Source of the DNA: Pseudomonadota bacterium
Lineage (GTDB): Bacteria > Pseudomonadota > Alphaproteobacteria > Geminicoccales > Geminicoccaceae
Assembly (NCBI GenBank): GCA_030549795.1
Contig: JAUQQO010000044.1
Location: 1-64,000, forward strand
DNA length: 64,000 nucleotides
Direction of reading: 5' to 3'
Shown here: positions 48,970-56,302 of the stretch, one piece after another
Position numbering within the stretch: the stretch's first letter is position 1
How the letters are laid out: every line of letters begins with the position of its first letter
Position numbers and translations under genes: made by a program
The notes under the pieces: generated by a model
Databases searched by the model: none
The model's input: only the letters and a program-made list of their open reading frames with translations
What the model was told of the DNA's origin: nothing

Positions 48970-50586
48970 ATGCGCTTCGGGCCACTGCCGATCACGCAAG
49001 CGGAAGGCGGGATCCTCGCCCATCGCTTGGTTGCCCGCGAGCTCGTGCTCGCCAAAGGAGAACGGCTCGATCGCGCGCGTCTTGCAGCGCTCGCCGAGCG
49101 CGGCATCGAAGAGGTGGTGGTTGCGGTGCTCGAGCCCGGTGACGTCGCCGAGGATGAGGCCGCGGCGCAGCTCGCCGCGCTCCTCATAGGACCTGGAATT
49201 CGCGCCGACTCGCCATTTACCGGCCGCGTTAATCTCTTTGCTACCGTTTCCGGAGTACTCGAAGTCGACGCTGCCCGCGTCGACCAACTCAACGCTCTCG
49301 ACGAGCGGATCACGCTTGCGACCCTACCCCGCTTCGCGGCCGTACGCGCCGAGGAGATGATCGCCACCGTCAAGATCATCCCCTTTGCGGTGCCCGAAGC
49401 CGTGCTCGCACAATGCCTGGCGATCGCCCGCGAAGCGCCTCTGTTGCGGTTGCATCCCTTCCGCGCCAAGGGCGTGCGGTTGATCCAAACCGTGCTCGAG
49501 GGACTTGCCGAGAAGGCGCTCGATAAGACCGTGCGCGTGACCGAGGCGCGGCTGCGCGCGGTCGGCGCCACGCTCCTCTCCGAGAGTCGGTGTGCGCACG
49601 CGATTGGACCGTTGGCGGAAGAAATTCGCCGCCAGAAGCGAGCCGGCTTCGACATTTTGCTGATCGCCGGTGCCTCGGCGATCACCGACCGCCGCGACGT
49701 CTTGCCGACGGCGATCGAACAGGCCGGGGGACGCATCGAGCAGTTCGGAATGCCGGTCGACCCCGGCAACCTCTTGCTCTTGGCCGAGCTCGACGGTCGG
49801 CCGGTGGTGGGGCTTCCGGGCTGTGCGCGTTCACCCAAGCTCAATGGCTTCGATTGGGTGCTCGAGCGCCTCGCGGCCGATCTTCCCGTTCACGCCCGTG
49901 ATCTTCGCGCCATGGGGGTTGGGGGGCTGCTCATGGAGATCCCGAGCCGGCCGCAGCCGCGCGCCGAGCGTCCGAGGGCACCGGGACCCACGCGACTGGC
50001 CGCGGTGGTGCTGGCTGCCGGCCGCTCGAGCCGTATGGGCACGCTCAACAAACTCTTAGCACCGCTCGACGGCAAGCCGATGCTGTGCCATGTGGTTGAG
50101 GCCGCGCTGGCCGCCGGCCTTGCAGACGTGGTGGTCGTTACCGGTCACATGCGCGAGCAGGTCGAAGCTGCGCTCCGCGGTCTTCCGGTGCGATTCGTCC
50201 ACAATCCTGATTACCGAGAAGGTCTTGCGAGCTCGCTTAAAGCCGGGGTTGCTGCGCTGTCGCGAGACATCGACGGTGCCTTCATCATCTTGGGCGACAT
50301 GCCGCGCATCCGCGCGGACCATCTGCGCAGGCTGGCCGACGCCTTCGACCCCGCCGCGGGGCGGAGCATCGTCGTGCCGGTACACGGGGGCCGCCGCGGC
50401 AATCCGGTCTTGTGGGGACGGGCCTTTTTCGTGACCTTCGAGGGGCTGGAAGGGGACACGGGCGCGCGCCACCTCATCGACCAGTTCCCGGAAGCTGTGG
50501 CCGAGGTCGACATACCGGATGCGGCTATTTTCCTCGACGTCGATACGCCCGAAGCGCTCGCTGCGCTGGGCGCAGCACAGCTTTAA
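48970..50586 (+). CDS. Fused molybdopterin-binding (MoeA-like) and nucleotidyltransferase (MocA/MobA-like) protein
   Basis: 538 residues. The N-terminal ~335 residues match the molybdopterin-binding type (LPITQAEGGILAHRL, GRVNLFA, FDILLIAGASAITDRRD, GMPVDPGNLLLL, and PVVGLPGCARS). Residues 340-538 are an NTP transferase with LAAVVLAAGRSSRMG and the metal Asp in FIILGDMPRI, as in molybdenum cofactor cytidylyltransferase. It probably converts Moco to MCD for xanthine-dehydrogenase-family enzymes, though none is in the window. Starts about 75 bases after the transporter and ends 17 bases before sufS. Confidence 0.88.
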   Translation: MRFGPLPITQAEGGILAHRLVARELVLAKGERLDRARLAALAERGIEEVVVAVLEPGDVAEDEAAAQLAALLIGPGIRADSPFTGRVNLFATVSGVLEVDAARVDQLNALDERITLATLPRFAAVRAEEMIATVKIIPFAVPEAVLAQCLAIAREAPLLRLHPFRAKGVRLIQTVLEGLAEKALDKTVRVTEARLRAVGATLLSESRCAHAIGPLAEEIRRQKRAGFDILLIAGASAITDRRDVLPTAIEQAGGRIEQFGMPVDPGNLLLLAELDGRPVVGLPGCARSPKLNGFDWVLERLAADLPVHARDLRAMGVGGLLMEIPSRPQPRAERPRAPGPTRLAAVVLAAGRSSRMGTLNKLLAPLDGKPMLCHVVEAALAAGLADVVVVTGHMREQVEAALRGLPVRFVHNPDYREGLASSLKAGVAALSRDIDGAFIILGDMPRIRADHLRRLADAFDPAAGRSIVVPVHGGRRGNPVLWGRAFFVTFEGLEGDTGARHLIDQFPEAVAEVDIPDAAIFLDVDTPEALAALGAAQL

Positions 50587-50603
50587 GGGCGGAGGCGCGG
50601 TCG

Positions 50604-51842
50604 ATGCCGACCATGGCGGGACGCGGAGACTTCGACCTTGCCGGGCTGCGCGGCGAATTTCCGATCTTCGCGGCACAAGGGCCGCGCTTTCACTATCTCG
50701 ACAACGCCGCCACCGGTCAGATCTGCCGCGCTGCTGCCGAAGCGCTCATCGACTTCGAGACGCGCGCGCGCGCCAACGTCAAGCGCGGGGTGTATCGGCT
50801 CGCCGATGAGGCGACGCGCGCCTTCGAAGAGGCTCGGGCGCGGATCGCAGGGTACATTGGGGCGCGCGAGGCAGCAGAAGTGGTGATCACGAGCGGCACC
50901 ACCCACGCCCTCAACCTCGCCGCCCACTGCTTGTGCGCGCGACTGCGCCCGGGCGATGAGATCCTGCTCACCACGGCCGAGCACCACTCGAATATCGTCC
51001 CCTGGCAGCTCGCCGGCGCGCGAGTCGGTGCCACGATTCGCGCCATTCCACTGCAGACGGATGGGCGGCTCGATCTCGACCGCCTCGCCGATCTGCTCTC
51101 CGCGCGCACCCGTGTGATCGCTGCGACCCATTGTTCGAATGTCACCGGGGCGATCACCGACATCGGGCGCCTGGCCGAAGCCGCGCGGTCTGTGGGCGCG
51201 GTGCTGGTGGTCGACGGGGCGCAGCGCGCACCCCACGGTCCGCTCGACGTTCAGGCGCTGGGCTGTGACCTCTACGCCCTTTCTGGGCACAAACTGTTCG
51301 CGGCGACGGGCGCCGGGGCACTGTGGATCCGCTCCGACCTCGCCCAAGAGCTGCCGCCCTTTTTGGGCGGCGGCGAGATGATCCGCCGGGTGAGCATCGA
51401 ATCTTCGACCTTCGCGCCGCCGCCCCATCGCTTTGAAGCCGGAACTCCGCCGATTGGAGCAGCGCTCGCACTCGGTGCGGCTGCGGCCTGGCTTTCCGGT
51501 CTCGACTGGGAAGCGATCCACGCTCATGAACAGCGTCTGCTCGAGCGGCTGCTCGCGGGCCTCAAGGCGATCCCGGGTGTTCGGCTGCTCGGGCCCGAGG
51601 GAACCCAAGCGCGCGCTCCGCTCGTCTCCTTCGTCGTCGACGGTATCCATCCCCACGACGTGTGCCAGCTCTTGGACACATTCGGGGTGTGCACGCGCGG
51701 CGGCCATCACTGTGCCCAGCCTTTGCACGAGGCGTTGGGGGTCGAGGCGAGCGTGCGGGCCTCGATCGCGCTCTACAACGACGAGGCCGACATCGAGGCG
51801 CTGCTCGACGGTCTCGAAGAGGTGGTGCGGAGGCTCGCGTGA
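50604..51842 (+). CDS. sufS: SufS-type cysteine desulfurase
   Basis: PLP enzyme removing sulfur from cysteine. ATG 50604 with GGCGGAGG upstream gives 412 residues, usual for the group II family. Motifs: AEHHSNIVPWQ, VVDGAQRAPHG, the PLP Lys230 in SGHKLFAATGAG, and the persulfide Cys370 in RGGHHCAQPL. Its stop overlaps the start of a SufU-type protein by four bases (GTGA). The sufBCD scaffold genes are not here, so the sulfur may go to another acceptor such as Moco or a tRNA. Confidence 0.93.
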   Translation: MPTMAGRGDFDLAGLRGEFPIFAAQGPRFHYLDNAATGQICRAAAEALIDFETRARANVKRGVYRLADEATRAFEEARARIAGYIGAREAAEVVITSGTTHALNLAAHCLCARLRPGDEILLTTAEHHSNIVPWQLAGARVGATIRAIPLQTDGRLDLDRLADLLSARTRVIAATHCSNVTGAITDIGRLAEAARSVGAVLVVDGAQRAPHGPLDVQALGCDLYALSGHKLFAATGAGALWIRSDLAQELPPFLGGGEMIRRVSIESSTFAPPPHRFEAGTPPIGAALALGAAAAWLSGLDWEAIHAHEQRLLERLLAGLKAIPGVRLLGPEGTQARAPLVSFVVDGIHPHDVCQLLDTFGVCTRGGHHCAQPLHEALGVEASVRASIALYNDEADIEALLDGLEEVVRRLA

Positions 51843-52276
51843 GCGCCGAGCTCTACCATCGCATCATCGTCGAGACCGCCAAGGAAACCGCCAAGGCCAC
51901 CCGGCTCGAGACGGCTGATGTCACCGTCGAGGAGGACAATCCCTTGTGCGGCGATCGCATCCTCCTCGACCTGCTCGTCCGCGACGGTAAGGTGGCGGCG
52001 GTCGGCCATTCTACCCGCGGCTGTCTTCTTACGCGCGCCGCGGCGGTGGTGCTGGCGCGCCGCGCTCCCGGGTGCTCCGCAAAAGAGCTCGGCGATGCGA
52101 TCGCGAGCCTGCACGCGCTCCTCGAGAAAGGCGAGGGGCCGCCACTGTGGCCCGAGCTTGCCATGTTCGCGCCGGTGCAGGCGGTCAAAAGCCGCCACGA
52201 GTGCGTGCTCTTGCCCTTCCGCGCACTCGCCCGCGCGCTCGCGCTGATCGAGCGTTCGAAGGGAGCGCAGCCTTAA
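51839..52276 (+). CDS. sufU: SufU-type zinc-dependent sulfurtransferase
   Basis: GTG at 51839 gives 145 residues. The four zinc/sulfur-binding positions of B. subtilis SufU are kept in order: Cys and Asp in NPLCGDRI, Cys in STRGCLLTRAA, and Cys in SRHECVLLPF. SufU accepts persulfide from SufS; the related IscU is a cluster scaffold, but the NPLCGD/RGC spacing and pairing with SufS favour SufU. SufU-type proteins are usual in Gram-positive bacteria and less so in proteobacteria. Overlaps both neighbours, so the three genes are translated together. Confidence 0.86.
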   Translation: MSAELYHRIIVETAKETAKATRLETADVTVEEDNPLCGDRILLDLLVRDGKVAAVGHSTRGCLLTRAAAVVLARRAPGCSAKELGDAIASLHALLEKGEGPPLWPELAMFAPVQAVKSRHECVLLPFRALARALALIERSKGAQP

Positions 52277-53517
52277 TGCGCTGGACAGCCGATGCGCTGC
52301 GCGCGCTCGACGCCCAAGACCCGTTGGCGCCCTTTCGCGATCGCTTCGTTTTGCCCCGCGGCTGTGTCTATCTCGCGGCTCACCTTTTTGGGCCTATGCC
52401 GGCGCGCGCACCCGAAGCGATCGCGCGCGCGCTCGAAACGCACTGGGGGGCGGGGCTCGCCGAGCTGGGCGCGGCCGGCGCTGCCGGGGAACTGTGCGCA
52501 CAGGTGGCGCGTGACATCGCCCGTCTCATCGGGGCCGCGCCGCACGAGATCGCGGTCGGCGATACGGTGACGATCAACGCCTTCAAGCTTGTTGCCGCCG
52601 CGGTCGATCTGCGGCCCGGGCGACCGGTCCTGCTCGCCGAGCGTGGCTCGACCCCAGAGCTCATCTCGGCGGCTCAGAGCGTGAGCGAACTGTTGCGTGG
52701 CGAGGTCGAGCTGCGGCTCCTCGAAGAGGGCGAGCCGCTTGCCGAGGCGCTCGATGAACGCGTTGCCTGTTTTTTGGCAAGCCACGTCGACGATCGCAGC
52801 GGGGGAGTGCACGATCTCGCGGCGCTTGTCACCGCGGCGCACGAAGTGGGAGCACTGTTGCTCGTCGACCTGTCCCATTCGGCCGGGGTGATGCCGGTAG
52901 CACTCGATGCCGCCAACGTTGATCTCGCTATAGGCTCCGGTGCTCGATACTTATGCGGCGGACCGGGGGCGCCCGCATTCCTCTACGTCGCTGAACGCCA
53001 TCTCGAGAAGCTGCGCAGCCCGTTGCACGGCTGGGAGCGGTACGCTTACTCCAACGCCTTCGAGCTGCGCGCTCCGCTGACCCTTGGTATCGAACGGTTG
53101 GTCGTGAGCCGCCCCTCTCCTCTCGCTCTTGCGGCTCTGCACTGCGGGGTAGCGCTCGTCGGCGAGGCCGATCTCGAGCAAGTGCGCGAAAAGGCGCTGC
53201 GCTTGAGCGCAGCCTTTGCGGCCATCGCAGCCGATCGCCTCACGAGCTTCGCGGTCGCTTGCGCAAGCCCCGGGGATGCGGAGGCGCGCGGCGCACTTCT
53301 CGCGTTTGCGCATCCGCAGGCGCCGATGATCGCCCGGGCGCTCGCCGAGCAGGGGATCATGGCCGATGTGCGGCGGCCGGATCTGTTGCGCTTCGGCTTC
53401 GGCCCCTTGTGGAACAGCTACGAAGAAGTCTGGATTGCAGCCGAGCGCTTGGCCGAGGTCGTTGTCGCGCGGTCGCTCCACGACCGAAGCGCGCACACGC
53501 CTTCTCCCCCATCCTGA
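52276..53517 (+). CDS. Kynureninase-like PLP-fold protein lacking the PLP lysine
   Basis: ATG 52276 overlaps the sufU stop by one base and gives 413 residues. Kynureninase blocks are clear: IAVGDTVTINAFKL, SHVDDRSGGVHD, LLVDLSHSAGVMPV, and GARYLCGGPGAPAFLYV. The Schiff-base lysine of the YKYLNGGPG block is Arg224 here (codon CGA), so ordinary PLP catalysis is unlikely. The downstream substrate region also differs (LHGWERY; SRPSPLAL for the GTP-type loop). No frameshift or early stop: the frame is intact. It may be a pseudoenzyme or a protein of new function coupled to the sulfur-transfer pair. Confidence 0.85.
   Translation: MRWTADALRALDAQDPLAPFRDRFVLPRGCVYLAAHLFGPMPARAPEAIARALETHWGAGLAELGAAGAAGELCAQVARDIARLIGAAPHEIAVGDTVTINAFKLVAAAVDLRPGRPVLLAERGSTPELISAAQSVSELLRGEVELRLLEEGEPLAEALDERVACFLASHVDDRSGGVHDLAALVTAAHEVGALLLVDLSHSAGVMPVALDAANVDLAIGSGARYLCGGPGAPAFLYVAERHLEKLRSPLHGWERYAYSNAFELRAPLTLGIERLVVSRPSPLALAALHCGVALVGEADLEQVREKALRLSAAFAAIAADRLTSFAVACASPGDAEARGALLAFAHPQAPMIARALAEQGIMADVRRPDLLRFGFGPLWNSYEEVWIAAERLAEVVVARSLHDRSAHTPSPPS

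Positions 53518-56226: not shown

Positions 56227-56302
<76 letters not shown>

Follow-up and report, generated by a model that had tools for sequence, protein, structure and literature searches.

Gene content of the locus

The window (the whole stretch of 64,000 nucleotides that was analysed) carries a set of four genes that opens with a MocA-type fusion and closes with a degenerate homologue of kynureninase, here called the KynU-like gene. The genes, and three codons discussed below, are as follows (Pf, Pseudomonas fluorescens numbering).

48970-50586, forward strand: MocA-type fusion of a molybdopterin-binding-like domain (MoCF_biosynth, 1.1e-5) and a MobA-like NTP transferase (NTP_transf_3, 7e-44); first gene of the set
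50604-51842, forward strand: SufS-type cysteine desulfurase, second copy in the genome (TIGR01979, 470 bits, cut-off 475; Aminotran_5, 6e-130)
51839-52276, forward strand: SufU-type sulfur transferase with a GTG start and a 4-base overlap with sufS (TIGR01994, 65 bits, below the cut-off of 92.5; NifU_N, 25.5 bits, above cut-off)
52276-53517, forward strand: KynU-like degenerate kynureninase, a candidate pseudoenzyme of 413 aa, whose ATG overlaps the sufU stop by one base
52768-52770, forward strand: Cys165, Cys in all four intact copies of the genus and in <5% of other kynureninases
52945-52947, forward strand: codon 224, CGA (Arg), at the site of the PLP Schiff-base lysine (alignment to 1QZ9)
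52954-52956, forward strand: Cys227 at the Pf Asn230 position, Cys in all four intact copies of the genus; 92 of the 93 other kynureninases have Asn

The MoCF_biosynth match of the MocA fusion (25.6 bits) lies slightly under the cut-off of 26.6. In alignments, SufS has its catalytic Lys (SGHK) and Cys (RGGHHC), and SufU retains three ligand cysteines and an Asp (NPLCGD, TRGCLLT, RHECVLLP). Downstream of the set, a tRNA-Ala (CGC) is found on the minus strand at 56227-56302, between ubiD and yggT.

The KynU-like frame is uninterrupted over its 413 residues and contains ...GSGARYLCGGPGAPAFLY.... At its junction with sufU (...CCTTAATGCGC...) the sufU TAA and the KynU-like ATG have one base in common, and sufS and sufU overlap in GTGA. 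A sequence-only reading of this DNA had described an intact kynureninase homologue with Arg in place of the PLP lysine and with the PLP-site Asp and His kept, starting one base inside a sufU that itself overlaps sufS; the frame, the alignment and the junction sequences bear out each of these points. The KynU-like protein is the only protein with a KYNU_C domain in the window genome. The GC and GC3 of its gene equal those of the neighbours, so that composition is uninformative as to a foreign origin, and a literature search for Geminicoccaceae together with kynureninase returned nothing.

The SufS-SufU pair and the molybdenum cofactor

The set of MocA fusion and sufU, with or without sufS, is widespread in Alphaproteobacteria (window 48970-52276; loci L040-L069 and L177-L204). 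SufU of the window type occurs in 30 of the 31 genomes of the family. Of 58 family and class loci, about 49 have a MocA fusion no more than 1.5 kb upstream of SufU, whether or not sufS stands between them. In some genomes sufU lies directly behind mocA without sufS; a role of SufU itself in the maturation of the molybdenum cofactor (Moco) is suggested. The MocA fusion is syntenic in all six genomes of the genus, and genes of XdhC-family chaperones are also present in all six.

Maturation of the molybdenum cofactor involves MocA-type proteins and dedicated desulfurases (PMC2997495). Other contigs of the window genome carry a complete, separate SUF locus (SufB/D-type proteins beside SufS) and a SufE, which rules out the operon SufS-SufU pair as the cell's sole source of sulfur for Fe-S clusters. 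The separate SUF locus and the linkage of SufU to MocA make it likelier that the pair supplies sulfur for Moco maturation than for Fe-S assembly, and the whole set of MocA fusion, SufS and SufU probably sulfurates the cofactor. A general Fe-S sulfur module is not supported for the pair either, as housekeeping SUF genes and sufE lie elsewhere and SufU is tied to a MocA-like gene.

A kynureninase fold with an altered pocket

The relationship of the KynU-like protein to kynureninase is evident from its KYNU_C Pfam match (2.5e-23, 82.3 bits, cut-off 27) and its match to P. fluorescens kynureninase 1QZ9 (5.7e-75). An AlphaFold2 model (pLDDT 90) superposes on 1QZ9 with a TM score of 0.92. Segments 61-70 and 251-270, near the active site, are modelled at a pLDDT of 56-66; when the genuine kynureninase of Halomonas cupida (L081) is modelled from an identical set of 34 sequences, the corresponding blocks reach 83-85. 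The model also resembles SufS (TM about 0.75), including SufS in the SufS-SufU complexes 8odq and 9ddd. The protein is nevertheless ruled out as a SufS-type desulfurase, since it scores 33.8 bits against a TIGR01979 cut-off of 475 and has no catalytic Lys.

In kynureninases a lysine forms the Schiff base with PLP. Arg224 of the window protein aligns with this residue, Lys227 of 1QZ9. Four further residues, assigned to the pocket by reference to 1QZ9, were compared with it between 93 kynureninases from outside the genus and the four intact genus members. Lys227, Tyr226, Phe129, Trp200 and Trp256 are kept in 93 of 93 of the former. Within the genus, Lys227 is kept in two of four, Trp256 in one (the window protein) and the other three in none: the Tyr226 position reads A/D/H/S, the Phe129 position T/L/V/V and the Trp200 position Val in every copy. 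The window protein has A, T, V and W at Tyr226, Phe129, Trp200 and Trp256, and has thus lost three of the four. The Asp and His that contact the PLP ring (D198 and H201; Pf D201 and H204) and the carboxylate-binding Arg (Pf R375) are retained in all four members. As pocket residues are lost in all four, the pocket was already altered in their ancestor, before the lysine was lost. An enrichment of changes at active-site columns (9 of 13, versus 15 of 45; p=0.028) depends on a site list that was in part provisional and to which two columns were added post hoc, and is not relied on. Cys165 and Cys227 are the sole cysteines of the protein in one relative (G005, below).

The protein is almost certainly not a kynureninase, as the sequence-only reading had held. 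Activity of this kind is made very improbable by the pocket residues, by a score of 159.9 bits on the kynureninase equivalog TIGR01814 (cut-off 246.4) and by the lack of tryptophan 2,3-dioxygenase, which was found in none of the six genus genomes in a search that detected its controls.

Variation within the genus

The sample consisted of six genomes of one genus, the window and G001 to G005, all of them metagenome-assembled genomes of Geminicoccaceae; the members other than the window go under the names SKYB19, KatS3mg117 and HOT.CON.139 in the contig collection. Judging from the record names, the genus appears to be of hot-spring origin. An intact KynU-like gene is present in four of the six (the window, G001, G003 and G005), always in the order mocA fusion, sufS, sufU, KynU-like. 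Its start falls within the sufU stop each time, at a TAATG junction in the window and at a GTGA junction in G001, G003 and G005. The other two genomes hold 5' remnants at the same place, of about 53 codons followed by an ABC-transporter region in G004 and of about 22 recognisable codons in G002. An ABC-transporter gene cluster occupies the place of the missing remainder in G004 (L035, 2400-5600). Loss from two of the six species marks the gene as accessory, and it is clearly dispensable.

The earlier proposal that the gene travels behind sufS-sufU thus holds for the four intact copies, with their overlapping frames, and no further. Outside the genus, no KynU-like gene was found behind sufU among the other SufU loci that the family and class searches gave, and a scan of the contig collection yielded no copy of more than 45% identity, which rules out that the set is fixed throughout bacteria. 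The idea that Arg is a fixed feature of it finds no support either. The PLP-lysine position is Arg (CGA) in the window, Lys (AAA) in G001 and G003 and Gly (GGA) in G005, so that two of the homologues at this locus retain the Lys and the Arg is unique to the window, while the third homologue has also lost the Lys. In the gene tree G003 groups with G005, and in the species tree the window groups with G001; the Lys was therefore lost in two independent events, on the window branch and on the G005 branch. An artefact of sequencing or assembly at the CGA codon has a negligible probability: the step from AAA to CGA takes two base changes, the Lys-to-Gly replacement arose independently in a complete assembly from elsewhere, and many other pocket changes accompany the Arg. 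The first two of these points rule out a simple read error.

Retention of the Lys in two species is compatible with a PLP enzyme of unspecified specificity that was neofunctionalised in the ancestor and remains active in the two species with the Lys; the copies without it would be recently inactive or would use PLP or PMP with no Schiff-base lysine. The conserved Asp, His and Arg named above would fit such an enzyme. We consider it unlikely, as Tyr226, Phe129 and Trp200, invariant in kynureninases, are gone from all four copies and Trp256 is gone from those that bear the Lys.

Selection on the KynU-like gene

Among members of the genus, the KynU-like proteins are 57-61% identical where SufS is 81-86% identical. 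Pairwise omega (Nei-Gojobori) is 0.27-0.39 for the KynU-like gene, and the same genome pairs give 0.11-0.18 for SufS; synonymous changes between the two sub-clades approach saturation, so absolute omega values are rough. Constraint on the KynU-like gene is weaker than on the neighbouring SufS gene by a factor of about three, which counts against a maintained pseudoenzyme. The main rival explanation, which we regard as somewhat unlikely, is that a redundant enzyme, once kynureninase-like, is slowly decaying under relaxed selection and that the window copy is becoming a pseudogene; loss of the Lys, erosion of the pocket and the two deletions would then be stages of one ongoing gene loss. The low identity of the KynU-like proteins, the two 5' remnants and the exchange of the Lys for Arg in one intact copy and for Gly in another all favour such a course.

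Branch omegas were obtained with a custom branch codon model, from which SufU was left out on account of unstable branch lengths. On the window branch omega is 0.22 (p=6.5e-6 vs 1) and on the Gly-bearing G005 branch 0.094 (p=1.7e-6 vs 1), and on both branches some of the signal of purifying selection may date from before the Lys was lost. Relaxation is seen on the window branch only (0.22 vs 0.107 elsewhere, p=0.018), as expected of a decaying gene. Against decay, neutrality is rejected on both Lys-less branches, so the gene does not yet amount to a dead pseudogene; the Gly-bearing branch displays no relaxation; the stop/start coupling to sufU is kept; and four diverged copies have remained free of frameshifts and stops. 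Loss of the Lys without a change of rate in the Gly-bearing species also argues against an enzyme of altered specificity.

In G004, where the KynU-like gene is truncated, SufS has an omega of 0.124 versus 0.045 elsewhere (p=4e-4), and MocA and the SLC13 transporter of that genome display no such change. The G004 SufS retains outgroup residues at 12 sites changed in the other five species, which makes recombination possible, and the acceleration, a hint from one species, may be due to recombination instead. SufS, and apparently SufU too, are far more diverged than their neighbours in this locus (L035, 5837-7470).

Proposed origin and function

The explanation we prefer, and to which we give about an even chance, is that the KynU-like protein is a genus-restricted, dispensable pseudoenzyme derived from kynureninase, held by purifying selection of moderate strength and recruited to the MocA-linked SufS-SufU pair. 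A kynureninase gene would have come to the end of the mocA-sufS-sufU operon in the ancestor of these hot-spring Geminicoccaceae and become translationally coupled to sufU. Residues of the kynurenine and PLP pocket would have been lost before the species split; the lysine would then have been dispensable, and at least two species would each have lost it, while selection held the fold. In the window protein a catalytic residue is gone within a known enzyme fold, as in a pseudoenzyme. The place of the gene at the end of a sulfur/molybdenum-cofactor operon, together with the preserved protein, makes survival as a non-catalytic helper probable. Covalent use of PLP would be gone, and the protein would most likely bind or stabilise the SufS and SufU translated along with it, themselves most likely the sulfur source for Moco maturation; we infer the physical partner, the absence of catalysis and the Moco link. 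A more specific proposal makes the protein a new part of the MocA-linked SufS-SufU sulfur relay for Moco, a dead PLP fold that docks on SufU/SufS, perhaps carries sulfur on Cys165/Cys227, and whose loss alters the constraint on SufS; this we hold to be very doubtful.

Proteins related to fold-type I PLP enzymes that lack the lysine and remain under selection are useful cases of a catalytic fold turning into a scaffold, and here related species display a series that runs from a retained Lys through Arg and Gly to loss of the gene. If the link to SufS/SufU is true, the KynU-like protein would be an extra part of a widespread and apparently uncharacterised alphaproteobacterial set of MocA fusion, SufS and SufU.

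Comparison with known systems

The KynU-like protein shares with kynureninase (KynU, EC 3.7.1.3; TIGR01814, KYNU_C, 1QZ9) its fold, 34-45% identity, a C-terminal domain above the Pfam cut-off, the PLP Asp and His and the carboxylate Arg. It differs in the missing Lys, Tyr226, Phe129 and Trp200, in its score under the TIGR01814 cut-off and in its setting, beside sulfur and molybdenum genes in a genus without tryptophan 2,3-dioxygenase. The SufS/CsdA/NifS desulfurases (class V, fold type I) have a related fold and the gene adjoins sufS-sufU, but the protein lacks their catalytic Lys and is no desulfurase. In trypanosomatids, the deoxyhypusine synthase prozyme is a paralogue without catalytic activity that has been retained as an activating subunit (PMC3663545). 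Prozyme and partner are closely related paralogues, whereas the KynU-like protein is only distantly related to SufS and its binding is hypothetical. The XdhC-NifS4 system of Rhodobacter capsulatus has a desulfurase dedicated to Moco (PMC2997495), and XdhC-family genes occur in all six genomes of the present genus; here the desulfurase gene is linked instead to those of a MocA fusion, a SufU-type carrier and the KynU-like protein.
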